From: Agrococcus sp. KRD186
GTDB taxonomy: Bacteria; Actinomycetota; Actinomycetes; Actinomycetales; Microbacteriaceae
Length of the DNA: 64,000 nt
Assembly: GCF_017168255.1 (NCBI RefSeq)
Contig: NZ_JABFAP010000001.1
Span: 1,954,366 to 2,018,365 of the forward strand
Direction: 5' to 3'
A program made the translations under genes and the position numbers. Shown here piece after piece: positions 36,350 through 54,593 of this stretch (the stretch's first letter is position 1; every line of letters starts with the position of its first letter). A model generated the notes under the pieces. It saw only the letters and a list, made by a program, of their open reading frames with translations, had not been told where the DNA came from and made no database searches.

Positions 36350-36412
36350 CTCAACGTGTCAGGTGCTTGCTTGCCGCACACGGTGCGGCAACGAGGCACC
36401 TGACACGTTGAG
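36350..36412. repeat. 63-bp palindromic repeat, copy 1
   Basis: Outer arms CTCAACGTGTCAGGTGC and its exact complement are 17 bases each. An inner hairpin TTGCCGCAC-ACG-GTGCGGCAA has nine-base arms. It lies six bases downstream of the pyrE stop and 67 bases before the AEC gene start. The same 63-base design recurs at 53532 and 54531 with compensating base changes. It could act as a transcription terminator for pyrE, but the sequence conservation across copies suggests a repeat family. Confidence 0.85.
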
Positions 36413-36418
36413 CACTGA

Positions 36419-36970
36419 CTACTGGGGCGTGAGGCCGAGGTCGTCGAGCGTGATCGCGGCGCGGTACTCGACGCCCGCCGCTTCGATCGCCGCCTGCGCG
36501 CCGGTCGCCCGGTCGACGATCACCGCGACCGCCACCACCTCGGCGCCCACCGTGCGCAGCGCCTCGATCGCGGCGATCGGGCTGCCGCCGGTGGTCGAGG
36601 TGTCCTCGAGCACGACCACGCGCTTGCCGGCCAGCTCGGGGCCCTCCACCTGGCGGCCGCGGCCGTGATCCTTGGGCTGCTTGCGCACGACGAACGCGTC
36701 CACCGCCAGCTCGCGCGCGAGGCCGCGGTGCAGCACGGCGTTGGCGAGCGGGTCGGCACCCATCGTGAGGCCGCCGACGGCCGAGATGTCGGGCAGGTCG
36801 GCGATCAGGTCGAGCAGCACGTCGCCGATCAGCGGCGCCGCGCGGTGGTCGAGGGAGAGCTTGCGCAGGTCGATGTAGTAGCTGGCGCGCTTGCCGCTGG
36901 TGAGGATGAAGTCGCCGTGGAAGACGGCCTCATCACGGATGAGCTGGATGAGCTGGTCGCGCGCGGTCAC
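36419..36970 (-). CDS. pyrE: Orotate phosphoribosyltransferase
   Basis: A 183-residue type I phosphoribosyltransferase that makes OMP from orotate and PRPP in pyrimidine synthesis. The N-terminal 'FHGDFILTSGKRASYYIDLRKL' has the conserved SGK and YxD. The flexible loop 'FVVRKQPKDHGRGRQVEG' carries the catalytic Lys/His. The PRPP motif is 'VVVLEDTSTTGGSPIAAI' (about residues 121-138). Length is typical for the short actinobacterial form. GTG is the only start that keeps the first helix. No other pyr gene is in the window. Confidence 0.93.
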   Translation of the reverse strand: MTARDQLIQLIRDEAVFHGDFILTSGKRASYYIDLRKLSLDHRAAPLIGDVLLDLIADLPDISAVGGLTMGADPLANAVLHRGLARELAVDAFVVRKQPKDHGRGRQVEGPELAGKRVVVLEDTSTTGGSPIAAIEALRTVGAEVVAVAVIVDRATGAQAAIEAAGVEYRAAITLDDLGLTPQ

Positions 36971-37006
36971 GGCGTCAAGGCTACTGGGCGCGGGTGCCGG
37001 GATGGA

Positions 37007-37663
37007 TCAGCCGGCGGCGGCCTCCGCCGCGCTGGTCGCACTGGCCGCGCTCGCCGAGCTGGGGGTCGCCGGGTGGTCGCGCAGCGGCACGAAGCTGACG
37101 CGCGGGTGCCGGCCGGTCCAGGCGGCGAAGCGCTCGGACCGGGTCGCGTCGGCCGGCGGCTCGACGGGGTCGCCGAAGATGCCGGGCGCGCGGATCGCCG
37201 CCTCGTCGGCGCGGTCGCGATAGTCCTCCATCCACTCGAGCAGCTGGGTGGGGAACTCGAGGTTGGCCGCCAGCCCCACACGCACCGCGCCCCAGCGGAT
37301 GTCCCACGCGTGCAGGGCCATGTCGAGCGTCGCGAGCGGCAGCGCGCGGAAGGAATCCTCGCCCGCCTCGTGGGCGGCGCCGCGCAGCTGCGTCGCGAGC
37401 TGCTCCCAGACAGTCACCGAATCCCAGTCGGTCGAGGGTGCCGTGATCGAGGCGTGGTCGGCCGTCACGTCGTTCGCGCCCAGGGCTCGGCCCAGCAGCG
37501 CCGAGCCGCCGTACTCGGCCTGGATGCCGGTGGTGTGGCGGATCACGTCGGCGATCGACCACTCGTCGCACGCCGATGGCAGCCCGAGCCGATCGGCGGA
37601 TGACCGTGCCTCTGCCGAGAACAGGTCGAGAGCCTGGAGGTAGCGGTCGCGCGCGTGTCCCAT
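37007..37663 (-). CDS. TIGR03086/maleylpyruvate isomerase-like family protein
   Basis: A 218-residue helical-bundle protein of the mycothiol-dependent/DinB-like superfamily. 'RLGLPSACDEWSIADVIRHTTGI' (about residues 25-47) carries the C-x-E-W-S-x-x-D-V-x-x-H pattern with a metal-binding His. 'LDMALHAWDIRWG' (about 113-125) supplies the second conserved His-x2-D. A C-terminal region of Ala/Ser repeats is low complexity. Function unknown; homologues may move or isomerise thiol adducts. It lies 36 bases upstream of pyrE on the same strand. CAGAAT lies six bases before its ATG. Confidence 0.7.
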   Translation of the reverse strand: MGHARDRYLQALDLFSAEARSSADRLGLPSACDEWSIADVIRHTTGIQAEYGGSALLGRALGANDVTADHASITAPSTDWDSVTVWEQLATQLRGAAHEAGEDSFRALPLATLDMALHAWDIRWGAVRVGLAANLEFPTQLLEWMEDYRDRADEAAIRAPGIFGDPVEPPADATRSERFAAWTGRHPRVSFVPLRDHPATPSSASAASATSAAEAAAG

Positions 37664-37750
37664 CACCCCATTCTGTACGCCTTCGCATGCCAGGCCACCC
37701 GCGGCCCGCCCGCGATGCGGAAACATCCGCCTCGCCCGTAGGCTCGGAGC

Positions 37751-38563
37751 ATGCGCATCGCCACCTGGAACGTGAACTCCGTGCGTGCCCGCTCGGCCCG
37801 CATCGTCGACTGGCTCGAGCGCAGCGACGTCGACGTGCTCGCCATGCAGGAGATCAAGTGCAAGACCGAGCAGTTCCCCTATGCGGCGTTCGAGGCCGCC
37901 GGCTATGAGGTGCAGGCGCACGGCTTCAGCCAGTGGAACGGCGTCGCGATCGCCTCGCGGCTGCCGATGACCGACGTCGAGCGCGACTTCCCCGGCCAGC
38001 CCGGCTACGCCAACACCGGCGACCCGGTGGTCGAGGCGCGCGCGATGGCGGCGACGGTCGAGGGGGTGCGGCTGTGGAGCCTCTACGTGCCCAACGGCCG
38101 CGAGCTCACGCATGCGCACTACGGCTACAAGCTCGAGTGGCTGCGGGTGCTCACGGGGCTGCTCGACGAGTGGCGCGGGCAGCCGCTGGCGCTGATGGGC
38201 GACTTCAACATCGCCCCGCTCGACCATGACGTGTGGGACATCGGTGTGTTCGACGGTGCCACGCACGTGTCCCAGCCCGAGCGGGATGCGTTCCGCGGGC
38301 TCATCGACGCGGGTCTCGTCGACGTCGTGCGCGACCGGGCCCCCGGCTACACCTACTGGGACTACAAGGCCGGCCGCTGGAACAAGAACGAGGGCATGCG
38401 CATCGACTTCGTGCTCGGCACCCCAGAGCTCGCCGAGCTGGTGGGCCGCGCCTCGATCGACCGCGACGAGCGCTCCGGCGACGCCCCCAGCGACCACGTG
38501 CCGGTGGTCGTCGACCTCGACCTCGACACCGAGCTCGATGACGACCGACCGATGATCTTCTGA
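37751..38563 (+). CDS. xth: Exodeoxyribonuclease III
   Basis: A 270-residue ExoIII/AP endonuclease of the EEP superfamily that nicks DNA at abasic sites. 'MRIATWNVNSVRAR' gives the Asn7 metal/phosphate ligand, and 'MQEIKCKTEQFP' the metal-binding Glu (about 34). 'GDFNIAPLDHDVWD' (about 153-166) holds the catalytic Asp-x-Asn. 'WDYKAGRWNKNEGMRIDFVLG' and 'SDHVPVVVDL' supply the final Asp and His. Length is normal. TAGGCT (37739-37744) lies six bases before the ATG, suggesting leaderless initiation. The stop overlaps the next gene's ATG. Confidence 0.94.
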   Translation: MRIATWNVNSVRARSARIVDWLERSDVDVLAMQEIKCKTEQFPYAAFEAAGYEVQAHGFSQWNGVAIASRLPMTDVERDFPGQPGYANTGDPVVEARAMAATVEGVRLWSLYVPNGRELTHAHYGYKLEWLRVLTGLLDEWRGQPLALMGDFNIAPLDHDVWDIGVFDGATHVSQPERDAFRGLIDAGLVDVVRDRAPGYTYWDYKAGRWNKNEGMRIDFVLGTPELAELVGRASIDRDERSGDAPSDHVPVVVDLDLDTELDDDRPMIF

Positions 38564-38934
38564 TGACGGATGTGTCGGGCGGGCCGGAAGGGCTCAGTCA
38601 CGAGGAGTGGGAGGAGCTCGAGCCGCAGCGCGAGTGGACGGCCGCCGATCGCTGGCGGCTGGCCGCGTGGGTGCTGATCTTCGTGAATGTGCTGGTGCTG
38701 CTGCTGGCCGCACCGGTCGGCGACGGCTGGCTGGTGCGGGCCGCCGAGGCAGCCGGCTCCGACGTGGAGCCTGCGCGGCTGACCTACTGGATCTCGCTGC
38801 TCGGCTCCACGCTGGTGGGCAATGCGGTGGGTGCCGCGGCCGCCGCCACGAGGCAGCGCTGGGCGATCGTGCCGCCGATCCTGGCCGCTGCCGGCTGCTG
38901 GGCCGGCTTCTTCATCGCGCAGGCGCTGATCTGA
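38563..38934 (+). CDS. Small membrane protein coupled to xth
   Basis: A 123-residue protein with an acidic soluble N-terminus (about residues 1-30; 'EEWEELEPQREW') and three hydrophobic helices (about 33-52, 75-95, 100-120). The last two helices are joined by a short 'ATRQRWA' loop. I do not recognise the family. Its ATG overlaps the xth stop (TGATG), so it is translated with xth, but nothing in it suggests DNA repair. The stop is one base away from the end of the convergent gene. Confidence 0.65.
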   Translation: MTDVSGGPEGLSHEEWEELEPQREWTAADRWRLAAWVLIFVNVLVLLLAAPVGDGWLVRAAEAAGSDVEPARLTYWISLLGSTLVGNAVGAAAAATRQRWAIVPPILAAAGCWAGFFIAQALI

Positions 38935-38935
38935 G

Positions 38936-39511
38936 CTAGCGGGAGTCGGCGCGCGACTGCTCGGCCGGCGCCCCTTCGCGGTCGGCGAGGCCGACGCCAT
39001 CGGCCGGGCTGTCGCCATCGGCAGCGGCGGGGCTGCCGTCATCGCCGGCGGGCAGCGGGGTCGGTGCGTCAGCGACGGCGTCGATCGGCGCATCGGCGTG
39101 CTTGCCGAGCATCCGCAGCACGATCGCGACCAGCATGGCGCAGGCGAGCAGCACCCAGGAGGAGAAGATCAGTGCGAGCGGCACGCCCCGCGCGCTGATG
39201 TCGCCGAGCCTCGCATTGCCGAGGAAGAGCCCGAGCGCACTGATGAAGGCCAGGACGACGACGACGCCGGCGGAGGCGCCGAGCCAAAACGCGGAGGGCT
39301 GCTTCCAGACCGCCGCGCGGCCGATCACGAGCACGGCCCAGACCAGTGAGGGCATGAGCACGGAGGCGACCCAGTAGGGCAGCAGCTCGGGCACGTCCGG
39401 ATCCACCCGGGCGATGATGGCTGTGCTGATGGCGACGTGCAGCCCCACGACGATCGCGACCGGCACTCCGGTGGCGCGCGCCGGGTGGTCGTTGCTGGGG
39501 GTGACGTCCAA
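38936..39511 (-). CDS. Membrane protein of unknown function
   Basis: About 191 residues, with four hydrophobic helices (around 15-37, 42-66, 72-98 and 108-133). An acidic, Ala/Pro/Asp-rich tail of about 60 residues is likely disordered and cytoplasmic. No family is recognised. The start is chosen at a TTG (39511) because GGAG lies six bases before it; no ATG or GTG is well placed and the long upstream extension is basic and repetitive in character. The first residues 'DVTPSNDHPARATGVPVAIVVGLHV' lead straight into helix 1. Convergent with the gene after xth. Confidence 0.55.
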   Translation of the reverse strand: MDVTPSNDHPARATGVPVAIVVGLHVAISTAIIARVDPDVPELLPYWVASVLMPSLVWAVLVIGRAAVWKQPSAFWLGASAGVVVVLAFISALGLFLGNARLGDISARGVPLALIFSSWVLLACAMLVAIVLRMLGKHADAPIDAVADAPTPLPAGDDGSPAAADGDSPADGVGLADREGAPAEQSRADSR

Positions 39512-39824
39512 AGGCTGCTCCAAGGTTCGAGGGTATGCCCGTCGGCGCGAGAGCGCCAGGGTCGGCGGCGCTCGCGTCGTGCGGCGCTCACCGCGCTGGG
39601 GTGCGGCGGGCGCTGATCCGACGGTGCCACCAGCCACTGACGGCCGCCGACGCAACTCCCTTGCGGGCGACGGCGACCTCACGCGCAACGCTCAGAACTG
39701 ACAGAGAAGGCGGCCCGGAGCGCAAGATAATTGCGCCAGGCTGCCCGTACGCTGGAAACACGCACCGATCGAGCGCCGCCGCGCCACGATCGCTCACCAG
39801 CGAATCCCTCCAGGAGGCTTCCCC

Positions 39825-41198
39825 GTGACGATGACCCAGGCCACCGCAGCCGACCTCCGCCAGCACGCCGCCTGGCTGCAGATCAAGGCGGCAGCGACCG
39901 CGCTGCAGCCGATGCAGTCGAAGAACGGCTCCATCGAGGAGCCGGGCGACCACGACGCGGCCCGCGCCCGTGTGACCGAGCTGACCCAGGGCATCCGCGA
40001 CATCGCCCCCGAGTTCCCGCACGATGCCGACTACCTCGCGCAGGCCGCGCTCGACTTCGAGCGCTGGGCCGACGGCGGCTTCGGCGAGCCCGACTTCTTC
40101 GACGCGCTGGCGAAGTTCCAGCCGCAGCAGCACCGCATCGACGGGCTCAAGCACCTGGTGATCTTCCCCATGTACACGCAGAACGGCTCGGCGAAGCGCC
40201 TCGTCGAGGCCGTGCTGGTCGAGGTCATCTGGCCCGACTTCATCGCCGAGCTCGAGGCCGGCGACTACTCGAACGCGCTGTTCGTGCCGCTGCGCTTCAT
40301 CGACTTCACCGCCGGCTACGACACCAACTCGGCGGTGCTCTTCCCGGAGACGGTCGCGATGCGCGAGATCCCGTCGTTCACGTGGGGCGCCATCTTCCAG
40401 GACCGCGAGGCCGCCCGCTTCCGCCGCGTCGTCGAGGCCGCGTGCGAGGTGACGAAGCTCGAGCTGCCCGCTGACGCCGCCGAGCTCATCGCCGACCAGC
40501 GCACGGCCGAGGAGACCTTCGTCATGTGGGATCTCATCCACGACCGCACCCACATGCGCGGCGACCTGCCCTTCGACCCGTTCATGATCAAGCAGCGCAT
40601 GCCGTTCTTCCTCTACTCGCTCGAGGAGCTGCGCTGCGACCTGACCGCCTTCCGCGAGTCGGTCGCGATCGAGCGCCGCATCGCCGCTGACGACAAGGCG
40701 ACGGATGCCGATCTCGCGTTGGCGAAGCACGCCAAGCACGTGCAGTACGCGGTCATCTTCGACCGCATCTTCCGCTTCGCGATCACCGGCTCGCGCGTGC
40801 GCAACTACGACGGCCTGGGCGGCCAGCTGCTGTTCGCCTGGCTGCACCAGCACCGCGTGCTGCACTGGACCGACACGCAGCTCGCCTTCGACTGGGACGA
40901 GGTGCCCGACGTCGTGAACAAGCTCGGCGAGGCCATCGAGCTGCTCTACTGGCGCTCGATCGACCGGCCGAAGGTCGCGCACTGGCTGGCCGCCTACGAG
41001 CTGGTCTCCTCCGTCGTCGAGCCGCACCCGGCCTCGAAGTGGAAGGCCGGTGAGCTGCCGCTCGACGGCGCGCCGCGACAGCTGACCGACCTTGTGATGG
41101 ACGACGAGTTCCCGCTGTCGATGTTCTACGAGGCGTTCGAGAAGAAGATGCGCGAGACCATCGCGTCGACCGCGGGCATCACCGCCGAGACCGCGTAG
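39825..41198 (+). CDS. DUF6421-like conserved actinobacterial protein
   Basis: A 457-residue soluble protein without signal peptide or membrane helix. Blocks such as 'HRIDGLKHLVIFPMYTQNGS', 'FVPLRFIDFTAGYDTNSAVLFPETVA', 'MWDLIHDRTHMRGDLPFDPFMIKQRMPFFLYSLEELRCDLTAFRE' and 'LLFAWLHQHRVLHWTDTQLAFDW' are highly structured and look conserved. The H-D-R-T-H-x-R and E-E-L-R-x-D segments could bind a metal, as in some metallohydrolases, but this is inference. I place it with DUF6421 from memory of that family. The GTG start has AGGAGG seven bases upstream. It is followed by a hairpin. Confidence 0.6.
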   Translation: MTMTQATAADLRQHAAWLQIKAAATALQPMQSKNGSIEEPGDHDAARARVTELTQGIRDIAPEFPHDADYLAQAALDFERWADGGFGEPDFFDALAKFQPQQHRIDGLKHLVIFPMYTQNGSAKRLVEAVLVEVIWPDFIAELEAGDYSNALFVPLRFIDFTAGYDTNSAVLFPETVAMREIPSFTWGAIFQDREAARFRRVVEAACEVTKLELPADAAELIADQRTAEETFVMWDLIHDRTHMRGDLPFDPFMIKQRMPFFLYSLEELRCDLTAFRESVAIERRIAADDKATDADLALAKHAKHVQYAVIFDRIFRFAITGSRVRNYDGLGGQLLFAWLHQHRVLHWTDTQLAFDWDEVPDVVNKLGEAIELLYWRSIDRPKVAHWLAAYELVSSVVEPHPASKWKAGELPLDGAPRQLTDLVMDDEFPLSMFYEAFEKKMRETIASTAGITAETA

Positions 41199-41220
41199 GC
41201 GCCGCTCGCGCGCATCGCCC

Positions 41221-41250
41221 CGTCGCCCTACAGTGAGCGTCGGGGCGACG
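41221..41250 (+). terminator. Hairpin after the DUF6421-like gene
   Basis: CGTCGCCC...GGGCGACG, eight-base arms with a 14-base loop, lies 22 bases after the stop and 30 before the glycosyltransferase start. It probably separates the two transcription units. Confidence 0.45.
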
Positions 41251-41279
41251 CGCGTCCGACCCCGAGCTGGAGTCACGCC

Positions 41280-42518
41280 ATGGCGACGATCGCGGCCTAC
41301 ACGAGCCCGGCGCTCGGCCACGTGCTGCCGTTCGCCGGCGTGCTGCTCGAGCTGCAGCGCCGCGGCGACCGGATCCGGCTGCGCACGCTCTCGAGCGAGG
41401 TCGGGCGGATGCGTGACCTCGGCTTCGACGCGGACGCGGTCGACGCGCGGGTCGAGGCCGTGGAGTTCGATGACTGGCGCGCGCGACGTGTGCTCGACGC
41501 CTACGGGCGCATGTGCGAGACCTTCTGCGAGCGCGGCCGGCGCGAGGCGCCGGACATGCGCGCGCTCATCCAGCAGTCGCAGCCCGATCTGCTGCTCACC
41601 GACGTCAACACCTGGGGCGCTGCCGCGGTCGCCGAGAGCACGGGGATGCCGTGGGTGTCGCTCGCGACCTACCCGCCGGCCATGCGCTCGCGCGGCTGCC
41701 CGCCGTACGGCCCCGGCCTCGCACCGGCGAACGGGCCGGCCGGCCGGCTGCGGGATGCGCTGATCGACCGGCTGGTCTACCGGCCGGCGATGCGGGCGGC
41801 CACGCCGATGCTCAATGCGCTGCGCACCGAGGTCGCCGCGCTGCCTGCGATCGACTCCTACGACGCGATGGTGCGCCGCGCCCCGCTCACGCTCGTCACG
41901 ACCGCCGAGCCGCTCGAGTACCGGCACGACGACTGGGCGCCGCGGCTGCAGCTGGTGGGCCCGACCTCCTGGGAGCCGCCGGCACCCGCGCCGGCCTGGC
42001 TCACCCGGCTCGACCGCCCCGTCGTGCTGGTGGCGACGGCTACCGACTACCAGGGCGACACCGACATCGTGCGCGTGGCGCTCGAAGCGCTGGCGGACGA
42101 GCCGGTGGCGGTGATCGCGACCATGGCGCACGGGGCACGGCTGGGCGTGGCGCTGCCCCGCAACGCACGCGTCGAGCGCTTCGTGCCGCACAGCCTGCTG
42201 CTCGAGCGGGCGGCGGTCGCCATCACCCACGGCGGGCTGGGCGTGACGCAGAAGGCGCTCGCGCACGGCGTGCCGGTCGTGGCCGTGCCGTACGGCCGCG
42301 ACCAGATGGAGGTGGCCGCGCGCGTGCAGCATGCCGGCGCCGGCGTGCGGCTCTCGCGATCGCAGCTCACGCCGGCGAGGCTGCGGGATGCGGTGGGCCG
42401 TGCCCGCGGGATGCAGGCGGGCGTCGAGGCGGTCGCCGCCGGCCTCGCGGCCGCTGGCCGCGCGCCGCGTGCGGCCGACCTCATCGAGCAGCAGCTGTCG
42501 GCGAGCGCCGCTCGATAG
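41280..42518 (+). CDS. MGT-type glycosyltransferase (tandem copy 1)
   Basis: A 412-residue GT-B fold family-1 glycosyltransferase. The N-terminal domain starts 'IAAYTSPALGHVLPFAGVLLELQRRGDRI' with the G-H acceptor-side loop and conserved His. The C-terminal domain has 'AITHGGLGVTQKALAHGVPVVAVPYGRDQMEVAARV' (about residues 315-350), the nucleotide-sugar-binding HGG...Q(D) motif of MGT-type macrolide/flavonoid transferases. GGAG is seven bases before the ATG. It is about two-thirds identical by eye to the next gene. The acceptor is unknown; inactivation of a xenobiotic or a glycolipid step are both possible. Confidence 0.85.
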   Translation: MATIAAYTSPALGHVLPFAGVLLELQRRGDRIRLRTLSSEVGRMRDLGFDADAVDARVEAVEFDDWRARRVLDAYGRMCETFCERGRREAPDMRALIQQSQPDLLLTDVNTWGAAAVAESTGMPWVSLATYPPAMRSRGCPPYGPGLAPANGPAGRLRDALIDRLVYRPAMRAATPMLNALRTEVAALPAIDSYDAMVRRAPLTLVTTAEPLEYRHDDWAPRLQLVGPTSWEPPAPAPAWLTRLDRPVVLVATATDYQGDTDIVRVALEALADEPVAVIATMAHGARLGVALPRNARVERFVPHSLLLERAAVAITHGGLGVTQKALAHGVPVVAVPYGRDQMEVAARVQHAGAGVRLSRSQLTPARLRDAVGRARGMQAGVEAVAAGLAAAGRAPRAADLIEQQLSASAAR

Positions 42519-42668
42519 CCGCGCCGCGCCGAAGGCACCGTCCGCGTGGGCGCGGGCCACTACGCTTGAGCGTTGGTGGCCGGCGACGCCCGCGGCCACG
42601 CACCCCGGCCCAGCACCTGCGCGGACCCCAGCCGACGCATCCGCTGCCGCATTGCAAGGAGGCACCGC

Positions 42669-43904: not shown

Positions 43905-44013
43905 CCGCAGGAGCCGCCGGTCTGCGCAGACGCGCCACGGCACATCCACCGGAATGCGCGCACCGCCCTCGTCGTTGTCTGAGTGCAGAGACTTCGAAGA
44001 GAGGAACGCACAC

Positions 44014-44649: not shown

Positions 44650-44659
44650 GCCCCGCGCG

Positions 44660-44698
44660 CCGAGGAGGCTGCGGTCCACGAGGCCGCAGCCTCCTCGG
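44660..44698 (+). terminator. Long hairpin after the SDR gene
   Basis: CCGAGGAGGCTGCGG and CCGCAGCCTCCTCGG are perfect 15-base arms with a nine-base loop. It begins ten bases after the stop. This is one of the strongest intrinsic hairpins in the window and a clear terminator candidate, without a T-run. Confidence 0.65.
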
Positions 44699-44746
44699 CG
44701 GATCGACCCCTGGCCAGCCCGCCCATGGAGGTGGCACGGTGGGGTC

Positions 44747-44938: not shown

Positions 44939-44981
44939 CAGACCACCGCCCGGCACCGGCTGCCCGTGCGACGATCGTCGC

Positions 44982-46146: not shown

Positions 46147-46158
46147 GCTCGCTGGCCA

Positions 46159-46215
46159 CGACGCCCAGGACGGGCGTCGGCGCTGGCGTCGCGGTCGAGA
46201 CCCGAAAGGGTCTCG
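46159..46215. terminator. Two back-to-back hairpins between convergent genes
   Basis: CGACGCCC-AGGAC-GGGCGTCG (46159-46179) and CGAGACCC-GAAA-GGGTCTCG (46196-46215) have perfect eight-base arms. The second has a stable GNRA (GAAA) loop. They fill the gap between the SDR stop and the stop of the convergent Ddn-type gene. Confidence 0.65.
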
Positions 46216-46219
46216 GCCC

Positions 46220-46660: not shown

Positions 46661-46722
46661 GCATCCCCCTCAGTCATCTCGAGCGTAGCCGGGCACGGCC
46701 ACGAGCGAGCGCCAGCGGGCAC

Positions 46723-46806
46723 ACGTCAGCGCGCAAGCGTCAGCGCGCAAGCGTCAGCGCGCAAGCGTCAGCGCGCAAGCGTCAGCGCGCAAGCGTCAGC
46801 ATGCAA
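46723..46806. repeat. Six tandem copies of a 14-bp unit
   Basis: GCGTCAGCGCGCAA is repeated head to tail six times (46723-46736, 46737-46750, 46751-46764, 46765-46778, 46779-46792, 46793-46806). The four inner copies are identical; the first begins with A, and the last has ATG for GCG. It lies between the start of the Ddn-type gene and the end of the DUF222 gene. There are no spacers, so it is not CRISPR. Identical copies imply recent expansion. Confidence 0.9.
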
Positions 46807-46824
46807 GCGCCACGTTGGCCCGGA

Positions 46825-48357
46825 TCAGAAGGGTGTGTTCAGCGGTGGTGGGGCGTTGGGGAGGCTGGGCTGGGTGCAGGCGATGGTGCCCCAGATGATG
46901 TCGTCGGTGTCGACGAACGCTGGGCCTTGGTGTTCGGGTTCGCTGCGGAGCACCACGCCGAGGGGGCTGGTGAACTCGAGCACCCCGTCTTCGAGCTGCT
47001 GGACCGTCCAGGCGGTGGCGTGCTTCATCGTGTGATGCCGGCGGCACAGGTGCGCGAGATTGCCGATGGTGGTCGCGCCGCCGGCGTCCCAGTCGTGGGT
47101 GTGGTCGACGTCGGCGCGGTAGACGGGGTTGTTGCAGCCGGGCCAGCGGCAGCGGCCGTCGCGGGCGCGCAGCCAGCGCCGCATGGCCCGGTTCGGCCGG
47201 TACGTGTCGACCGTCACCGGCACGCCGGTGACGGGGTGGAGGAAGAGCCGCTCCCAGGTGACCGTCTCGGCGGCGAGCATGCGGACGGTGTCGACATCGA
47301 CGAGGATCTCGTCATCGAGCAGCGCCGGGAACAGCTCCTGCCGCCCCGAACCATCGCTGGCAGGCTCGCGCAGCAGCGCGGTCGCCGGGATCGTCAACGC
47401 GACCGTCGCGGTGATCCCGTTCACCCCGTGCACGCCATTGACGTCGTCGGGCACCTGGCCGCGGGTGAGCAGATCCATGACCACATCGGCCCGGTACTGG
47501 TCGAACGTGCGCGGGTCATCCTTCGGCTTGCGCCGGGCCGCGTCGGTGGCGCGGTTGTAGGCGGCCTTCGCCGCCACCGCCAGGCAGCGCACGCCCAGGA
47601 ACGCCATCCCGTCGCCCTCGTCCTGCAGGAAGACCTCGCGCGTCTCGCGCGCCCGGTCGTGCCGCTGCTGGAAGGGCTCGGTCAGCACCCGATCGACGAT
47701 CCGCTTCGCCCGTGAGCGCAGCTGCCCAGGGGTCGTGGTCTCGGCCATGGCGACGAGCTCCTGCTCGACCCTCGCCCGCTCGCCGGCATCGACTGTGGCG
47801 TCCAGGCGCAGCGCCTCGGTCGCCTGCTCGATCGTGCGCAGATGGCCGCTGTTGATGCGGCCGGCCCGGTGGGCGTCGTGCGCGAGCGGCAGCTCGCTCA
47901 CCATCCGGGAGGCGGCGATCATGCGCCGCTCCATCGTGCGGTCGGAGAGGCGCAGCTCCACCGCGAGGTTCGAGGCCGTCTCGTGCAGGTTCGTGTCGAA
48001 CACGCCCGGCTCGTCGGCCAGCCGCGCGAAGCGGGCCGCGTACAACTCCCGCTTGGCTGCCTCCAGCCGCGCCGTCTGCACCTCCAGCGCGCGGGCACGG
48101 CCCACGAACTCCGACTCCGCGCGGAAGCGGGCGGCGTGCTCCGACTCGATCGGGCCCGGCAGCGCAGGCAGCGGCATGCGGCCGGCGACCACCTCGTCGA
48201 GCTGCTCCTCGGTCAGCGCCATCAGGCGTTCGGTCCAGTCACGATCGTACGCGTCCAGCGACTCCTGCAGCTCATCCGCAGTGCGCCCGTACGGGTCGAT
48301 CGCGCCGGCACGGACAGCGGCGATGTACTCCTCCGCATCCACGCCGTCCTCGAACAT
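46825..48357 (-). CDS. DUF222 domain protein with C-terminal HNH endonuclease motif
   Basis: A 510-residue protein of the abundant actinobacterial DUF222/HNH (13E12-repeat-like) family. The N-terminal two-thirds are helical DUF222 ('AASRMVSELPLAHDAHRAGRINSGHLRTIEQA' about residues 145-176). The C-terminus has 'RAMRRWLRARDGRCRWPGCNNP' and 'DVDHTHDWDAGGATTIGNLAHLCRRHHTMKH' (about 395-450), giving the C-x4-C, D-H, N and H-H of an HNH nuclease. The biological role is unknown; copies often spread within genomes. The 14-bp tandem repeat lies just beyond its stop. Confidence 0.9.
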   Translation of the reverse strand: MFEDGVDAEEYIAAVRAGAIDPYGRTADELQESLDAYDRDWTERLMALTEEQLDEVVAGRMPLPALPGPIESEHAARFRAESEFVGRARALEVQTARLEAAKRELYAARFARLADEPGVFDTNLHETASNLAVELRLSDRTMERRMIAASRMVSELPLAHDAHRAGRINSGHLRTIEQATEALRLDATVDAGERARVEQELVAMAETTTPGQLRSRAKRIVDRVLTEPFQQRHDRARETREVFLQDEGDGMAFLGVRCLAVAAKAAYNRATDAARRKPKDDPRTFDQYRADVVMDLLTRGQVPDDVNGVHGVNGITATVALTIPATALLREPASDGSGRQELFPALLDDEILVDVDTVRMLAAETVTWERLFLHPVTGVPVTVDTYRPNRAMRRWLRARDGRCRWPGCNNPVYRADVDHTHDWDAGGATTIGNLAHLCRRHHTMKHATAWTVQQLEDGVLEFTSPLGVVLRSEPEHQGPAFVDTDDIIWGTIACTQPSLPNAPPPLNTPF

Positions 48358-48452
48358 GCACGCATTCCATCACGTGCCACTGACACGGCGACCGCGCACC
48401 GGAGGGGGGTGGAGAACTCGCGGAGCCGGTCTCGATATGCGCGCTGCGCGCG

Positions 48453-50984
48453 CTACTCGACTAGCGACAGGCGCCCGACGCGCGTGACCTGCACGACCGC
48501 CACGCCCGCATCCGCCGACGCCACCAAGTCGATGGTGGCCCAGATGCGCCAGTCGTGGTCGCCGGCCGGGTCGGCGAGGATCTGCTGCGCCTCCCACACC
48601 TCGCGCCCCTCGTCGATGACCAGCATGCGCGACGAGCGGGCATCTGCGCCGGTGCCGATCGTCTCGTGCTCGTCGTAGTAGGCATCGAGGGCGTCACCCC
48701 ACGCATCCGCCCCGAAGCCCGACGGGCCGTCGAGCTCGCCGAGCGCCTCGTGCTTATCGAGTGCCGCGAGCTGCACGCGGCGGAAGAGCTCATTGCGCAC
48801 CAGCGTGCGGAAGGCCCGCGGGTTCGCCACCACGCTCGGCGGCCGGGGCGGCGCGATCGGCGTCTCGCCCGGCCCCACCGGGTGCATGAGCTGCTCCCAC
48901 TCGTCGAGCAGGCTCGAGTCGACCTGCCGCACGAGCTCGCCCAGCCACTCGATGATGTCGAGCAGATCCTCGCTCTTGGCCTCCTCCGGCACGGTCTGCC
49001 GGATGGCGCGGTAGGCGTCCGAGAGATACCGCAGCACCAGCCCCTCCGAGCGCGCGAGCGAGTAGTGCTGCGTGTAGTCGGCGAAGGTCATCGCCCGCTC
49101 CCACATGTCGCGCACCACCGACTTCGGCGAGAGCGCGAAGTCGCCCACCCACGGCTGCGACGAGGCGAAGACCTCGAGCGCGGCGGTCAGCAGCTCCTCG
49201 AGCGGCTTGGGGTGCGTGACCTCCTCGAGCAGCTCCATGCGCTCCTCGTACTCGATGCGCTCGGCCTTCATCGCCGCGACCGCCTCGCCGCGCGCGAGGA
49301 ACTGCTGCTGCGACAGGATCGGCCGCGGGTCGTCGAGCGTCGACTCGATCACCGAGACGACGTCGAGCGGATGCGTCGGCTCGGCCGGGTCGAGCATGTC
49401 AATGACCGCGAGAGCGAAGGGTGAGAGCGGCTGGTTGAGCGCGAAGTTGGGCTGCAGGTCGACGGTGAGGCGGATGCGCTGGCCGCCGGGCATCGACGGG
49501 TCCGGCACCTGCTCCACCACGCCGGCGGTGCGGAGGGTGCGGTAGATCGCGAGCGCGCGGCGCTCGAGCGCGAGCTGCGCGCGGCGCGGCTCGTGCGTGG
49601 AGGCGATCAGCTCGCGCATGGTGGTGAAGGCGTCGCCGCCGCGGCCGATGACGTTGAGCAGCATCGAGTGGCTCACCTGCATGTGCGGCACGAGCGGCTC
49701 GGGCTCGGCCTCGATGAGCTTCTCGAACGAGGGCTTGCCCCAGGAGACGAAGCCCTCGGGAGCCTTCTTGCGCACGAGCTTCCGCCGCGCCTTCGGGTCG
49801 TCGCCGGCCTTGGCGAGCATCTTCGCGTTCTCGGCCTCGTGCTCGGGCGCCTGCACCACCACCGAGCCCGCGGTGTCGTAGCCGGCCCGGCCCGCGCGCC
49901 CCGCGATCTGATGGAACTCGCGCGCCGTGAGCTGACGCATCCGCTGCCCGTCGAACTTCGTCAGGCCCGTGAGCAGCACCGTGCGGATGGGCACGTTGAT
50001 GCCGACGCCCAGCGTGTCGGTGCCGCAGATGACGCGCAGCAGCCCCTGCTGCGCGAGCTGCTCGACGAGCCGGCGGTACTTCGGCAGCATGCCCGCGTGG
50101 TGCACGCCGATGCCGCTGCGCACGAGCCGCGAGAGGGTCTTGCCGAAGGTGGTGGTGAAGCGGAACTCGCCGATCGCCGTGGCGATCTCGTCGCGCTGCT
50201 CACGGCTGACGATCTTCACCGACGAGAGCGCCTGCGCCCGCTCGAGGGCGGCCGCCTGGGCGAAGTGCACGATGTAGACGGGGGCGCGCTGGGTGGCGAG
50301 CAGCTCCTCGATGGTCTCGTGCACGGGGGTCATCGCGTACTCGTAGCTGAGCGGCACGGGGCGCTCGACGCCGGTGACGAGCGCCGTCTCGCGGCCGGTG
50401 CGGCGGCTGAGGTCGTCGGCGATCGCGGTGGTGTCGCCGAGCGTGGCCGACATCAGGATGAACTGCACGTGCGGCAGCGTCAGCAGCGGCACCTGCCACG
50501 CCCAGCCGCGCTGCGGATCGCCGTAGAAGTGGAACTCGTCCATCACCACCTGCTGCACGTCGGCGTCCTCGCCGTGGCGCAGGGCGAGGTTGGCGAGGAT
50601 CTCGGCGGTGCAGCAGATGATCGGGGCGTCGGGGTTGACGGATGAGTCTCCCGTGACCATGCCGACCTGCTCGGCCCCGAAGGTGTCGACGAGGGCGAAG
50701 AACTTCTCGCTCACGAGCGCCTTGATGGGGGCGGTGTAGAAGGAGCGCTGACCCTGCGCGAGGGCCGCGAAGTGCGCGCCGGTCGCGACGAGCGACTTGC
50801 CGGTGCCGGTGGGGGTCGAGAGGATCACGTTGCTGCCCGTGACGATCTCGAGCAGCGCCTCCTCCTGCGCCGGGTAGAGCGGCAGCCCGCGCCCGGCGGC
50901 CCAGGCCTCGAACGCGTCGAAGGCTCGGTCTGGATCCCAGGTGCCGGCATCCCGGAGCTGTGCGGCGTGGTCGAGGAGGGTCAT
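48453..50984 (-). CDS. Ski2/Mtr4-like DExH helicase with DUF3516
   Basis: An 843-residue superfamily-2 helicase. Walker A 'TPTGTGKS' is at about residues 50-57, motif II 'MDEFHFYGDPQRGWAWQ' (DEFH) at about 147, motif III 'LMSATLGDT' near 170, and motif VI 'HQIAGRAGRAGYD' near 360. The C-terminal ~400 residues are the DUF3516 helical domain ('ERMELLEEVTHPKPLEELLTAAL'). This is the actinobacterial relative of RNA helicases Ski2/Mtr4, likely acting on RNA. The ATG at 50984 has GAGGCG upstream. A downstream ~95-base gap to the DUF222 gene has no clear terminator. Confidence 0.9.
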   Translation of the reverse strand: MTLLDHAAQLRDAGTWDPDRAFDAFEAWAAGRGLPLYPAQEEALLEIVTGSNVILSTPTGTGKSLVATGAHFAALAQGQRSFYTAPIKALVSEKFFALVDTFGAEQVGMVTGDSSVNPDAPIICCTAEILANLALRHGEDADVQQVVMDEFHFYGDPQRGWAWQVPLLTLPHVQFILMSATLGDTTAIADDLSRRTGRETALVTGVERPVPLSYEYAMTPVHETIEELLATQRAPVYIVHFAQAAALERAQALSSVKIVSREQRDEIATAIGEFRFTTTFGKTLSRLVRSGIGVHHAGMLPKYRRLVEQLAQQGLLRVICGTDTLGVGINVPIRTVLLTGLTKFDGQRMRQLTAREFHQIAGRAGRAGYDTAGSVVVQAPEHEAENAKMLAKAGDDPKARRKLVRKKAPEGFVSWGKPSFEKLIEAEPEPLVPHMQVSHSMLLNVIGRGGDAFTTMRELIASTHEPRRAQLALERRALAIYRTLRTAGVVEQVPDPSMPGGQRIRLTVDLQPNFALNQPLSPFALAVIDMLDPAEPTHPLDVVSVIESTLDDPRPILSQQQFLARGEAVAAMKAERIEYEERMELLEEVTHPKPLEELLTAALEVFASSQPWVGDFALSPKSVVRDMWERAMTFADYTQHYSLARSEGLVLRYLSDAYRAIRQTVPEEAKSEDLLDIIEWLGELVRQVDSSLLDEWEQLMHPVGPGETPIAPPRPPSVVANPRAFRTLVRNELFRRVQLAALDKHEALGELDGPSGFGADAWGDALDAYYDEHETIGTGADARSSRMLVIDEGREVWEAQQILADPAGDHDWRIWATIDLVASADAGVAVVQVTRVGRLSLVE

Positions 50985-51018
50985 CGCCTCGAGTCTGTCG
51001 CACGAGCGCCGCTGGCAG

Positions 51019-51348
51019 TCACACCTCGGCGAGCACCTGCGACACGAGCCGGTTGATCGAGACCTTTTCCTCCGCCGCTCGAAGCGCAACCTTCTTGTGC
51101 AGCGACGGCGAGATCCTCACGCTCAACTTCCCCGAGTAGACGCGGTCCACCAGTGGAGTCGGCACCGTCTCGCCGTTCGCGGCGAGGTCGGCGATCACCG
51201 AAGCGATGAGCGACTCGAGTCCCCGCAATGCCTCCGGCGCTTCCTCTGCGACCCAGGAGAGCGAGGGGAACTCGACGGCGGTCGCGACGAACGCCTCGTC
51301 TTCTTCCGACCACTCCGTGCGGTACCCGTAGTGCAATCCCTTGCTCAT
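51019..51348 (-). CDS. hicB: HicB-family antitoxin
   Basis: A 109-residue HicB antitoxin. Residues 1-50 are the partial RNase H-like HicB fold: 'YRTEWSEEDEAFVATAVEFPSLSWVAEE', with D-E-x-F/Y-V-A-x3-E-F-P-x-L-S. Residues 70-109 are a ribbon-helix-helix DNA-binding domain ('LSVRISPSLHKKVALRAAEEKVSINRLVSQVLAEV'). It should bind and block HicA and repress the operon. Its ATG overlaps the hicA stop by four bases, so toxin and antitoxin are coupled, with toxin first, the usual hicAB order. Confidence 0.88.
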   Translation of the reverse strand: MSKGLHYGYRTEWSEEDEAFVATAVEFPSLSWVAEEAPEALRGLESLIASVIADLAANGETVPTPLVDRVYSGKLSVRISPSLHKKVALRAAEEKVSINRLVSQVLAEV

Positions 51349-51602
51349 CGTTCCCCCTCCAACTTCTCAATCGCAGCCAGCACCTGGCGCACCTGGTACG
51401 GCATCGCCCTTCCGTCCCGGTCCTGGATGTTCACGCGCGGGTCGCCCGGCCACGGCGTCCGGAAGACGAGGTGTGATCCTCCCCGCTGCCTCGGGGCACC
51501 GAAGTAGTGCTCGCATACCGACTGCAAGTCGGCGAACGGCACGTTCTTCGGCGACGCGCGCATTGCCGCAAGTCGCTTCCGCAGCTTCCCCACACCTCGC
51601 AT
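51345..51602 (-). CDS. hicA: HicA-family mRNA interferase toxin
   Basis: An 85-residue double-stranded-RNA-binding-fold toxin. 'LQSVCEHYFGAPRQRGGSHLVFRTPWPGDPRVNIQDRDGRAMPYQVRQVLAAIEKL' contains the G-x-S-H catalytic His in the conserved 'GGSHLVF' position and the C-terminal 'AIEKLE' helix. HicA cleaves mRNA until bound by HicB. It is slightly longer at the N-terminus than compact HicA proteins (~60 residues). An inverted repeat just upstream (51602-51621) may be the HicB operator. Intact motifs suggest an active module. Confidence 0.85.
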   Translation of the reverse strand: MRGVGKLRKRLAAMRASPKNVPFADLQSVCEHYFGAPRQRGGSHLVFRTPWPGDPRVNIQDRDGRAMPYQVRQVLAAIEKLEGER

Positions 51603-51621
51603 GGTAGCACTATTGCCACCA
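51602..51621 (-). promoter_or_regulatory. Possible HicB operator
   Basis: TGGTAGC-ACTATT-GCCACCA, seven-base arms with one mismatch, overlaps the first base of hicA. This is a likely position for autorepression by the ribbon-helix-helix domain of HicB. No promoter hexamers stand out nearby. Confidence 0.3.
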
Positions 51622-51693
51622 CGATAAGGGTGGTCGCGCGCATGGCGGGTGACCCGTCAGGCCCCGAGTCGCCGCGATTCGGTAGAATCTCCT

Positions 51694-53244
51694 GTGCTCC
51701 CCCCTCAATCGGATCCCTCCGGCGCGCCCGCCGACGTGCCGGCGACGCCCGACGCAGCGGCCGCCGCGGCAGTTGACGCCGAGCCGACGACGCTCGAGCC
51801 GGACGACGTCGCGACGACGCTGCGCGTGCTGGCGACGCTGCACGAGATGGATCGCGACGACCCGCACTACGTCGCGGTGCGGCAGGCGACCGCGAACATG
51901 TTCAAGGAAGTGAAGCTCGCCAGCCGCAAGGCCAAGCACGCCCGCATCCAGGCGGCCGACAGGGCCGTGATCGCCGCCACGGCGACGGGCGCAGCCGACC
52001 GCATCGACGACGAGACGCGCGGCATCCCGCTGGCGACCCGCGCATCCGCCCCCACGGCCGGCACGCTGCTCAAGTCGCGCGGCTGCTACATCTGCAAGCA
52101 GCAGTACACGCTCGTCGACGCGTTCTACCACCAGCTCTGCCCCGACTGCGCGCGGCTCAGCCACGCCAAGCGCGACGCCCGCACCGACCTGACCGGCAAG
52201 CGCGCGCTGCTCACCGGCGGCCGCGCGAAGATCGGCATGCACATCGCGCTGCGGCTGCTGCGCGACGGCGCCCACACGACCATCACCACACGGTTCCCGC
52301 GGGATGCGGTGCGCCGGTTCTCGTCGCTCGAGGACTCGGCCGAGTGGCTGCACCGGCTGAAAGTCGTCGGCATCGACCTGCGCGACCCGGCGCAGGTGGT
52401 CGGGCTCGCCGAGGATGTCGCCGCGGCTGGTCCGCTCGACATCCTCATCAACAACGCCGCCCAGACCGTGCGACGCTCCCCCGGCGCCTACGCGCCGCTC
52501 GTCGAGGCCGAGAGCACGCCGTTGTCGGAGCTCTCGCCGCACGGCGGCCCCATGCCCGAGCTCGTGACCTTCGGGCACACGAACGACGCGCATCCGCTCG
52601 CCCTCGCCGCCTCGGTCGCGAACCACCCGATCCTCGCAGCAGCCGCGAGCACGGCCGACGAGCTGACCGCGCAGGCGATGGCTGCCGGCTCGTCGTCGCT
52701 CGAGCGGCTCGCCGCCGGCACCGCGATCGACGCCGGCGGCCTGCTGCCCGACGAGGAGCACATCAACAGTTGGACGCAACACGTCGACCAGGTCGAGCCG
52801 CTCGAGATGCTCGAGGTGCAGCTGGCCAACATGACGGCGCCGTTCCTGCTGGTGTCGAAGCTGCGGCCGGCGATGGCGGCATCGACCGCGCACCGCAAGT
52901 ACATCGTGAACGTGTCGGCGATGGAGGGCGTCTTCGGCCGCGGCTACAAGGGCCCCGGCCACCCGCACACGAACATGGCGAAGGCGGCGCTCAACATGCT
53001 CACGCGCACGAGCGCGCGCGAGATGTTCGAGAGCGACCGCATCCTCATGACCGCCGTCGACACCGGTTGGATCACCGACGAACGGCCGCACTTCACGAAG
53101 GTGCGGCTGGCCGAGGAGGGCTTCCACGCCCCGCTCGACCTGGTCGACGGCGCCGCCCGCGTGTACGACCCGATCGTGCGCGGCGAGGCGGGCGAGGACC
53201 TCTTCGGCATCTTCCTGAAGGACTACGTCAAGGGTGCCTGGTGA
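51694..53244 (+). CDS. SDR oxidoreductase with N-terminal zinc-ribbon-like domain
   Basis: A 516-residue protein. Residues 1-130 are a helical region ('TLHEMDRDDPHYVAVRQATANMFKEVK') and a C-x2-C...C-x2-C ribbon ('CYICKQQYTLVDAFYHQLCPDCA', about 130-152). From about 165 follows an SDR: 'KRALLTGGRAKIGMHIALRLLRDGAHTTITTR' with T-G-G-x3-I-G, 'LDILINNAAQTV' and 'HPHTNMAKAALNML' in place of Y-x3-K. A long insert (about 270-400) lies between. The fusion is known in Actinobacteria but its reaction is not known to me. The GTG start at 51694 lies five bases after TAGAAT (51683-51688), so it is probably leaderless. Confidence 0.75.
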   Translation: MLPPQSDPSGAPADVPATPDAAAAAAVDAEPTTLEPDDVATTLRVLATLHEMDRDDPHYVAVRQATANMFKEVKLASRKAKHARIQAADRAVIAATATGAADRIDDETRGIPLATRASAPTAGTLLKSRGCYICKQQYTLVDAFYHQLCPDCARLSHAKRDARTDLTGKRALLTGGRAKIGMHIALRLLRDGAHTTITTRFPRDAVRRFSSLEDSAEWLHRLKVVGIDLRDPAQVVGLAEDVAAAGPLDILINNAAQTVRRSPGAYAPLVEAESTPLSELSPHGGPMPELVTFGHTNDAHPLALAASVANHPILAAAASTADELTAQAMAAGSSSLERLAAGTAIDAGGLLPDEEHINSWTQHVDQVEPLEMLEVQLANMTAPFLLVSKLRPAMAASTAHRKYIVNVSAMEGVFGRGYKGPGHPHTNMAKAALNMLTRTSAREMFESDRILMTAVDTGWITDERPHFTKVRLAEEGFHAPLDLVDGAARVYDPIVRGEAGEDLFGIFLKDYVKGAW

Positions 53245-53290
53245 CTCGGCCCGCCGGTCGAGGAGCGGCCCCGAGCTGCGCCTCGAGACC

Positions 53291-53530
53291 ATGACGCCTT
53301 CCGAGCTGCGCGCGCTGCCGCTGGGCAGGCGGCTGGTGGTGCGCTACCGGCTGCACGACGGGCAGCACGGGGCGACGGATGCGCTGGGCGACCTCGTCGC
53401 GATCGACGCGGCCACCTGCACGATCGCGACCCGTCGCGGAGCGGTCGTCATCCCCATCGCCGACATCGTCGCGGCCAAGCAGGTGCCGCCGCCTCCGGCG
53501 CCGCGCCTTCGGCAGCACCCGCAGCATTGA
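53291..53530 (+). CDS. Stand-alone SH3-like domain protein (Rv0428c N-terminal type)
   Basis: A 79-residue protein matching the SH3-like domain that begins Rv0428c-type GNAT proteins: 'LPLGRRLVVRYRLHDGQHGATDALGDL', 'TCTIATRRGAVVIPIADIVAAKQVPPPP'. Normally a GNAT acetyltransferase domain of ~200 residues follows; here the frame stops just after the conserved V-P-P-P-P, so the domain stands alone. Either the acetyltransferase part was lost, or the domain works alone. The next 63 bases are repeat copy 2. An in-frame GTG at 53234 would overlap the SDR gene end. The ATG at 53291 fits the domain better. Confidence 0.6.
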   Translation: MTPSELRALPLGRRLVVRYRLHDGQHGATDALGDLVAIDAATCTIATRRGAVVIPIADIVAAKQVPPPPAPRLRQHPQH

Positions 53531-53531
53531 T

Positions 53532-53594
53532 CTCAACGTGTGAGGTGCATCTTCGCCGCACCGGGTGCGGCATCGCACCACCTGGCACGTTGAA
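53532..53594. repeat. 63-bp palindromic repeat, copy 2
   Basis: It begins CTCAACGTGTGAGGTGC one base after the SH3-domain gene stop, has an inner GCCGCACC-G-GGTGCGGC hairpin and ends ACCTGGCACGTTGAA. The outer arms carry a few mismatches, so it is the most decayed copy. It lies six bases before the stop of the DUF559 gene, between two convergent genes. Confidence 0.85.
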
Positions 53595-53600
53595 AGAACG

Positions 53601-54482
53601 TCAACCCCAGGGGGCGCGGCGGTGCACGCCGCGCCGCACCAGGTCGAGCACGACTTCGCGCACGTAGTCGGGCTGGAAGAGCACCTGCTCATACGTGAAG
53701 CGCACCACCACATAGCCGCGGCGCGTCAGCTCGGCGTCGCGGCGCCGATCGTTCGCCATCTGCTCGGGCGAGGCGTGCCACGCCACCGAGTCGATCTCGA
53801 TCACGAGCGACCGGCCGATCAGGAAGTCGACGAACTCGCCCTCCACCGGTGACGCCTGCTGCCGGTAGGCGATGCGGCAGCGCCGCAGCAGCGCGGCGAA
53901 CTCCGACTCCGACCCGGAGCTCGCAGTCCCTGTCGCCCACGCCAGCCCGCGCGTTCGCCGCAGCGGCAGCTGCTTCACCAGCTCCGCCAGATCTTCGGGC
54001 TCCACGAGCTCCTTCGCGAGCGCCGTATCGGCCGCCGCCATCAGCTCGCTCTCGCTGATGCAGTGTGCGGCATTGGCCAGCGCCGCGATGGGCGAGTCGA
54101 TGCCGAACTGCGGGCGTGACTCCTCGAGGCGGGACGGTGTCGCGTGCGCGACGATGCTGGCTTTCGCGCGCGTGCCGGACGCACGCAGGCTGTGCGTGTT
54201 GCGCCGGATGCGCACGTGCAGCTTCTGGGGCCCGTGCGGCAGCCAGAGCTCGTGCTTCGCGAACGCCGTCACGCACGTCGCGACACCGCCGGCGCCCAGT
54301 GCGCGGGTGACGTCGTTCTGCAGGCCAACCAGCGCGACCCAGCCGCGCAGCGGCGACCAGATCTGCGTGCCCGCCATCGCCTGCAGCTCCTCCTTCGACA
54401 CGACGTTGCGCGCCGCCTGCACGGTGCAGACCCCACCTTCGCTCGCCAACCACTCCAGGAACTCCATGTGCGGAGGATGCAT
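53601..54482 (-). CDS. DUF559 (Vsr/PD-(D/E)xK-like) protein with N-terminal AbiEi-like winged helix
   Basis: A 293-residue protein. The N-terminus ('ASEGGVCTVQAARNVVSKEELQAMAGTQIW') resembles the winged-helix start of AbiEi/transcriptional-regulator-like proteins. The last ~110 residues are DUF559: 'SESEFAALLRRC' (Glu), 'GEFVDFLIGRSLVIEIDSVAWH' (Asp, then Glu-x-Asp) and 'DRRRDAELTRRGYVVVRFTYEQV'. This is the PD-(D/E)xK layout of Vsr-like nucleases with plausible catalytic residues. The gene is bracketed by repeat copy 2 at its 3' side and copy 3 at its 5' side; an extended frame would start inside copy 3. Possible defence or mobile-element role; not proven. Confidence 0.72.
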   Translation of the reverse strand: MHPPHMEFLEWLASEGGVCTVQAARNVVSKEELQAMAGTQIWSPLRGWVALVGLQNDVTRALGAGGVATCVTAFAKHELWLPHGPQKLHVRIRRNTHSLRASGTRAKASIVAHATPSRLEESRPQFGIDSPIAALANAAHCISESELMAAADTALAKELVEPEDLAELVKQLPLRRTRGLAWATGTASSGSESEFAALLRRCRIAYRQQASPVEGEFVDFLIGRSLVIEIDSVAWHASPEQMANDRRRDAELTRRGYVVVRFTYEQVLFQPDYVREVVLDLVRRGVHRRAPWG

Positions 54483-54530
54483 GTCCGGTCGCGAGGGCCG
54501 CGGCGCGCCGCCGCTCAGCTGTGCACAACT

Positions 54531-54593
54531 CTCAACGTGTGAGGTGCACGTTCGCCGCACACCATGCGGCGAACCACCACCTCACACGTTGAG
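54531..54593. repeat. 63-bp palindromic repeat, copy 3
   Basis: Outer arms CTCAACGTGTGAGGTG / CACCTCACACGTTGAG are perfect over 16 bases. The inner hairpin TTCGCCGCA...TGCGGCGAA has nine-base arms. It lies 48 bases upstream of the DUF559 start and 107 before the LapA-like gene. Compared with copy 1, the base pairs C:G at arm position 11 and the inner stem differ on both sides, keeping the pairing. Confidence 0.9.

Follow-up and report, generated by a model that had tools for sequence, protein, structure and literature searches.

A DUF559 nuclease gene between copies of a dispersed 63-bp palindrome in Agrococcus suggests a REPtron-like system

To our knowledge, the transposases known as RAYTs (repetitive extragenic palindrome [REP]-associated tyrosine transposases) are the sole well-described dedicated partners of bacterial extragenic palindromes. 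Miniature inverted-repeat transposable elements (MITEs) consist of terminal inverted repeats and carry no gene. A large REP class, the CGTC class, apparently lacks a dedicated transposase (PMC3733652), and the homing endonuclease I-Bth0305I is described as forming a dimer on a target that approaches 60 bp (PMC3943268). Here we analyze a window of 64,000 nucleotides from Agrococcus sp. KRD186 (contig NZ_JABFAP010000001.1, positions 1,954,366 to 2,018,365), in which a gene of the DUF559/MTES_1575 family sits between two copies of a 63-bp palindrome. The association between the two is real and well supported, and the gene-between-repeats pattern around DUF559 suggests an undescribed kind of self-spreading DNA. 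Among the open-access papers listed in literature searches, titles and abstract openings gave no such association of DUF559/Vsr-like nucleases with palindromic repeats.

The window holds three copies of the element, each 63 bp long and without an assigned strand, at 36350–36412 (copy 1), 53532–53594 (copy 2) and 54531–54593 (copy 3). The initial annotation was correct on these three sites, and also in noting a difference between copies 1 and 3 at arm base 11 (C in one, G in the other) that is matched by a change opposite. Between copies 2 and 3, on the minus strand, lies the DUF559/MTES_1575 gene (53601–54482), which encodes a 293-aa protein with a C-terminal Vsr-like, or homing-endonuclease-like, nuclease domain; its ATG start at 54482 was picked by homologue alignment, and an upstream GTG at 54560 is possible. 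This gene is the main point here and went unmentioned in the initial annotation, whose interpretation of the sites is supported in part. Copy 2 begins 1 nt past the stop codon TGA (53528–53530) of a small conserved plus-strand open reading frame (ORF) of 98 aa (53234–53530) and lies 6 nt away from the DUF559 stop codon, while copy 3 is placed 48 nt upstream of the start of that gene, between divergently called genes. Copy 1 is solitary and lies 6 nt from the stop of a minus-strand gene (36419–36970). Although the coordinates span 18 kb, what belongs together is limited to the three 63-bp sites plus the gene enclosed by copies 2 and 3. Folded as single-stranded DNA, copies 1, 2 and 3 reach −31.8, −20.4 and −31.9 kcal/mol (z-scores of −9.30, −4.50 and −10.85), and 0 of 200 shuffles folded as well. 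Copy 2 is an imperfect palindrome, with a mismatch at 11:53, a T-G pair at 10:54 and a last base A.

Comparison of the DUF559 protein with Pfam gave PF04480 at 3.1e-9, over the cut-off, and PF18741 at 5.5e-7, below the cut-off, and PADLOC gave its HEase model at 5.3e-8. A profile of the family matched the PDB entries 3r3p (2e-8) and 3hrl (5.7e-6), and the nuclease domain is, as judged from these profile matches, homologous to both. The PDB title of 3r3p is that of a mobile intron protein, which we take to be I-Bth0305I. The candidate catalytic stretch, ExD...WH, contains E229, D231 and H236, with D231 and H236 invariant in 14 homologues.

The palindrome belongs to a dispersed family. The initial annotation had envisaged that only three copies might exist; a pattern search of the KRD186 genome (G000 in the numbering of genomes used below) found 20, all exactly 63 bp. 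Among these copies the outer arm CTCAACGTGTSAGGTG is nearly constant and the inner motif TCGSCGCA...TGCGSCGA is symmetric. T precedes the element in 20/20 copies and A follows it in 15/20, and such AT flanks also extend the palindrome. No clear target-site duplication was seen at the four junctions compared. Across 24 genomes of the genus, perfect GTG-type arms occur in three, at 18, 12 and 15 places, and 11 of the genomes have covariance-model matches with an E-value of 0.01 or better, including about 23 matches in G001 (46 over two strands); those in G007 and G015 are doubtful, as the ones fetched were 88 and 51 nt long. Other Agrococcus species carry sister subfamilies in which the ends CTCAAC/GTTGAG and the length are kept, the next ten positions are rewritten and pairing is retained. 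We distinguish the GTG subfamily (G000, G001 and G003), the GTC subfamily (G009), the GGA subfamily (G009, with one copy in G003), the GGC subfamily (G002 and G004, with one copy each in G001 and G020) and the CGG subfamily (G017, G018 and G023). The five subfamily consensuses, like the KRD186 copies, have symmetric CTCAAC/GTTGAG ends, and their positions 7–12, 14 and 15 are Watson-Crick paired in all five though the bases differ.

The length, too, is constant. Among distinct palindromic CTCAAC/GTTGAG pairs of length 40–90 in 620 kb of fetched DNA, whose loci were mostly picked for holding elements, 64 of 65 measure 63 bp and one measures 64 bp. A wide pattern scan of 84,980 species returned 25 stretches. 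The 12 that are palindromic and have the inner motif all come from Agrococcus baldri; 13 belong to other organisms, show no inner motif and appear to be chance matches. The pattern CTCAACN51GTTGAG has a match in 32 of 150 Microbacteriaceae genomes. Outside the genus these are, among the matches listed, mostly single and non-palindromic by eye, and the CTCAAC/GTTGAG end type therefore looks genus-bound.

The pairing of gene and palindrome recurs across the genus, with the palindrome changing along with the gene. In 9 of 17 genes of the DUF559 clade, cognate 63-bp elements lie on both sides (G000, G003, G004, G009, G011, G015, G017, G019 and G023). The G009 homologue is 53% identical to the window protein and the G004 homologue 44% identical to both the window and the G009 proteins, and each lies between two elements of its local subfamily. 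These element pairs in G009 and G004 overturned an early idea, drawn from tblastn, that DUF559 is no general partner of the repeats. For G006, G016, G002 and G001, the elements beside the clade gene, on one side or on both, have altered ends such as GTCAAC. Beside one of these genes, in the left flank of the G006 locus (L161), three GTCAAC-ended 63-bp palindromes stand at a start-to-start distance of 104 bp. In a tree of 16 proteins, the pairs G000 plus G003, G009 plus G019, G017 plus G023 and G011 plus G015 were recovered with support of 98 or more, and the same four pairs share an element subtype, the GTG, GGAG, CCGGT and CCGGATAG types each marking one pair; G004 groups with G018, where the gene has no flanking elements.

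The pattern extends to several remoter DUF559 paralogues, whose own palindromes differ in sequence and length. A second type, GCAGGCGAT...ATCGCCTGC, would be expected in many copies where its nuclease is present. G007 has 51 copies of it, G014 has 35 and G008 has 26, and each of these genomes has a DUF559 paralogue flanked by it; G010, G009, G003 and G015 have 6, 2, 1 and 1, and none was found in the 17 other genomes, and a reversed-pattern control gave 0. Among the matches listed, the cores of the GCAGGCGAT palindromes in G007 and G008 are nearly always 55 or 57 nt long, with differing inner sequences, and the two length classes sometimes stand side by side, some 26–37 bp apart, like REP pairs.

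Flanking of this kind is far commoner at DUF559 loci than at control genes. When the palindromes to the left and right of a gene were required to have at least 10 nt in common, 22 of 63 DUF559 entries passed, compared with 1 of 300 control genes. The 63 entries come from 79 DUF559 match rows, the remainder being on short contigs or unfetched, and represent 62 distinct genes, one G010 gene having been entered twice (L173 and L219). The count misses the window's own locus, where copy 2 scores under the cut, and includes L164, whose pass is probably a chance GC-rich match. This test replaced one based on hairpins alone, in which both flanks scored 26 or more at 16/63 DUF559 and 1/139 control genes, and 20 or more at 32/63 and 10/139. 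Beyond the genus, near-identical long palindromes enclose three (L248, L251 and L260) of the 15 solo DUF559 loci examined; L250, within the genus, also passes this check. The sample comprised the 17 of 30 loci with a frame of solo length (15 of them outside the genus), 13 being dropped for length. The L248 palindrome has four copies in its own genome, two of them solitary, and none in 59 other genomes.

The initial annotation had drawn its case for compensating base changes from the three window copies. Neither these nor the 20 KRD186 copies bear it out by themselves: for the 20 copies, the covariation score was reached by 62 of 500 shuffles, the number of paired cells by 48 of 500 and the number of pairs with changes at both bases by 334 of 500. 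Because this signal was weak, a wider set was used. For 99 distinct copies from ten genomes, 2,421 of 3,069 cells are Watson-Crick paired, compared with 2,342 ± 14 in shuffles that permuted the 3′ letters within subfamilies, and 0 of 500 shuffles were as high. Thus, the claim is upheld in kind, across many copies and species. Such pairing could be purely mutational, arising by template switching in quasi-palindromes with no selection on structure. Indeed, the within-subfamily excess falls mostly on a few variable positions (10–14, 17, 22, 24, 28 and 30), and in the KRD186 copies the pairing at spacer positions 17–21 and at position 25 is close to that expected from base composition. Mutation alone leaves the constant ends, the constant length and the copying to new loci unexplained and does not compete with the nuclease association, and as a full account it is highly improbable. 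Template switching corrects imperfect palindromes, and such correction could contribute to the pairing; gene conversion within the palindrome could be another source of compensating changes.

The elements are placed mainly behind genes, in counts that rest on automatic gene calls. A stop codon lies within 20 nt of 78 of the 99 copies, and a start within the same distance of 14; 29 copies lie between convergent genes and 13 between two start sides, and 6 overlap a gene call. The 57 copies between codirectional genes lie closer to the stop (median gap, 9 nt) than to the start (51 nt). Along the main KRD186 contig, C1, the pattern search found no copy in the 1.24 Mb from 0.365 to 1.605 Mb, and the 20 elements lie in the part of the chromosome around the stronger DnaA match, at 2.406 Mb, so that the element-free region would surround the expected terminus.

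Elements also come and go at orthologous sites. At least nine copies are common by position to G000 and G001, among them copy 1, which has an orthologous element at the same place in G001 (L063). In contrast, G001 has an element (L287:2003–2065) at a site after a stop codon that is empty in the window (4937–4946, no strand assigned). At a further site where G001 has an element, KRD186 has a different, 57-bp palindrome with ACCGGTACTGTCTGGTC arms (L289:8181–8237), directly after the same stop codon and single in the KRD186 DNA scanned. The elements also reshape genomes, as in the loss of a solA-like gene (L046:4001–4063 and L144:3674–5147). In G001 this gene lies between two GTG elements; in KRD186 the gene is missing, one element remains and the break falls at the elements. 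Ten other genomes keep the gene beside the same neighbors. G003 likewise gave no solA-like match, and the loss may thus be older or have happened twice. At this locus G004, G009 and G013 have other element types, and 7 of 11 loci have none within 1.5 kb. Copy number, placement after stop codons, presence and absence at orthologous sites and species-specific subfamilies together bear out the REP/MITE-like dispersal that the initial annotation had proposed. Its other suggestions, a structured terminator or RNA, gained no support: no T-tract terminator was found in 53401–54760, a scan that covered copies 2 and 3, and the 64-kb window gave 0 Rfam matches at gathering score.

The position data bear on whether the palindromes are instead host 3′-end elements (transcription ends, mRNA stabilizers or barriers between convergent genes) maintained by selection, with DUF559 an inserted passenger. 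The crowding at stop codons and between convergent genes, the strong folds, the nine orthologous copies and the persistence of elements in G001, which lacks the DUF559 gene at the window's locus, all suit this explanation. A terminator, however, needs neither a constant 63 bp nor constant ends, and the region around copies 2 and 3 lacks the T-tract. Moreover, 21 of 24 genomes of the genus have no perfect GTG-arm match, 13 copies lie between two start sides, and both the clade-by-clade matching of nuclease and repeat and the excess in the shared-palindrome test are left unexplained. We regard this explanation as unlikely, though a 3′-end function, in RNA too, could be a secondary role.

Alternatively, the DUF559 protein might be a regulator or a defense or toxin-like nuclease, with the palindromes serving as operators or self-sites spread passively by recombination between copies. 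Its N-terminal region weakly matches AbiEi (PADLOC, 2.7e-4; Pfam AbiEi_4 in 1 of 14 family members, E 0.085), the position of copy 3 upstream of the gene would be that of an operator, and fixed length and symmetry suit a binding site. However, some 20 copies behind unrelated genes would be unusual for operators, and copies adjoin stops more than starts, making this distinctly unlikely.

We favor, with moderate confidence, a REPtron-like system in which a Vsr/homing-type nuclease takes the place of the RAYT transposase and the element is a non-autonomous mobile palindrome. This reading is built on observed features: a repeat family of fixed length with retained pairing, cognate flanking of the gene in several species, a nuclease clade that matches repeat subtype, presence and absence of elements between relatives and one gene loss with its break at elements. 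The proposed cycle would start from a DUF559 gene between two copies of its own palindrome, with solitary copies spread mostly behind stop codons. The N-terminal part of the protein would bind DNA, the nuclease would bind its palindrome as a dimer, and duplex or hairpin DNA would be cut; repair of the break would then copy the palindrome to new places and, rarely, the gene with its two palindromes. Arms and nuclease would drift together, giving species-specific subfamilies. Both the palindrome and its constant length of 63 bp would follow from a two-fold symmetric site spanning some six helical turns, and a dimer like that of I-Bth0305I would fit a site of this size, which may be why length is conserved and sequence is not.

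Several observations weigh against this scheme. Binding, cutting, transposition and nuclease-driven dispersal are steps that we infer from sequence, and a gene that inserted into palindromes spread by other means would also end up flanked. At the places aligned with E229, D231 and H236, 3r3p keeps the Glu and not the Asp and His. No flanking element was found at the clade genes of G018 and G020 or at the second KRD186 clade member (G000:C1:1869297–1870157; L174/L182), which is 52% identical to the window protein, and the G021 clade gene has one hairpin alone and no element by the 63-bp test. In G009 the GTC subfamily flanks none of the four DUF559 matches, and one GTC-type pair (L113) flanks a methyltransferase gene; both GCAGGCGAT palindromes of G009 form the pair around its paralogue, with none solitary, and the six in G010 leave its one DUF559 match unflanked. 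Outside the genus, 12 of the 15 solo loci have no convincing shared palindrome, L261 being borderline at 10 nt and the other 11 giving nothing. Finally, G001 has neither the DUF559 gene nor an element at the window's locus, for all its covariance-model matches elsewhere.

The last point can be read against the history of the locus. The small ORF and the SDR gene (51649–53244) mark the locus without a DUF559 gene in 16 of 17 other genomes examined: the SDR ortholog is present in 20 genomes, and in the 18 examined the DUF559 gene follows only in G000 and G003. Fetched flanks of the SDR locus in G021, G017, G018 and G015 include a 63-bp palindrome. By SDR identity G001 (97%) is closer to KRD186 than G003 is (88%), and G001 has therefore probably lost the gene. 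The clade homologue that G001 does have (C6:150474–151339; L165/L176) was found as two pieces and is thus probably broken. Elsewhere in the window, the sequence at 44658–44700 forms a strong GC-rich hairpin whose arms match perfectly and which bears no relation to the 63-bp family.

On a broader scale, it is evenly balanced whether these loci represent an undescribed class of selfish repeats in several Microbacteriaceae genera, in which each Vsr/DUF559 protein owns a palindrome of subfamily-specific length that it measures as a dimer, cuts and spreads. Such a class, if true, could account for many of the orphan DUF559 genes and for many unexplained long palindromes located downstream of genes in actinobacteria. 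A second nuclease type of this design would also assign a role to the large DUF559 family, and the reason why some palindromes have a constant length would become testable.

Among described systems, MITEs are likewise short, non-coding and multi-copy, with inverted-repeat ends and subfamilies; in the present family, however, the whole element is one palindrome, target duplication is not clear and the partner gene does not encode a DDE transposase. With the Vsr/VsrA DUF559 endonucleases, as described in PMC12907096, the protein shares the DUF559 domain and the PD-(D/E)XK superfamily, whereas here DUF559 is associated with palindromic repeats. The EDxHD/Vsr-like homing endonuclease I-Bth0305I has a nuclease domain that appears homologous by profile (E 2e-8) and a long, dimer-bound target near 60 bp (PMC3943268) comparable to the 63-bp palindrome, but the active-site residues are shared in part, and the gene here was not seen in an intron and sits between copies of a multi-copy palindrome.

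A further likeness is to REP/RAYT systems (REPtrons, TIRtrons and REPINs), in which, according to PMC3733652 and PMC8266576, palindromes are dispersed behind genes, several types occur per genome and each flanks a nuclease or transposase gene. The Agrococcus elements, too, are multi-copy extragenic palindromes, mostly downstream of genes, and the cognate gene lies between its own repeats at 9 of 17 clade loci. REPtrons combine dispersed palindromes behind stop codons, more than one repeat type in a genome and a nuclease gene between repeats (PMC3733652), and these features would also be expected if these were REPs moved by a conventional RAYT/TnpA-REP enzyme (Y1 HUH) encoded elsewhere, the link to DUF559 being incidental. 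We consider this very unlikely. The element ends lack the unpaired GTAG/CGTC tag and are symmetric, each element is a single 63-bp palindrome rather than a tagged hairpin of 20–40 bp, and the flanked genes scanned encode DUF559/MTES_1575 proteins rather than Y1 enzymes, no search for Y1 genes elsewhere having been made. Because two defining features, the tag and the Y1 transposase partner, fail, we describe the system as REPtron-like rather than as a member of that group; if a second type of nuclease, unrelated to the first, does share the gene-between-repeats design, this would suggest that the design has more than one origin.

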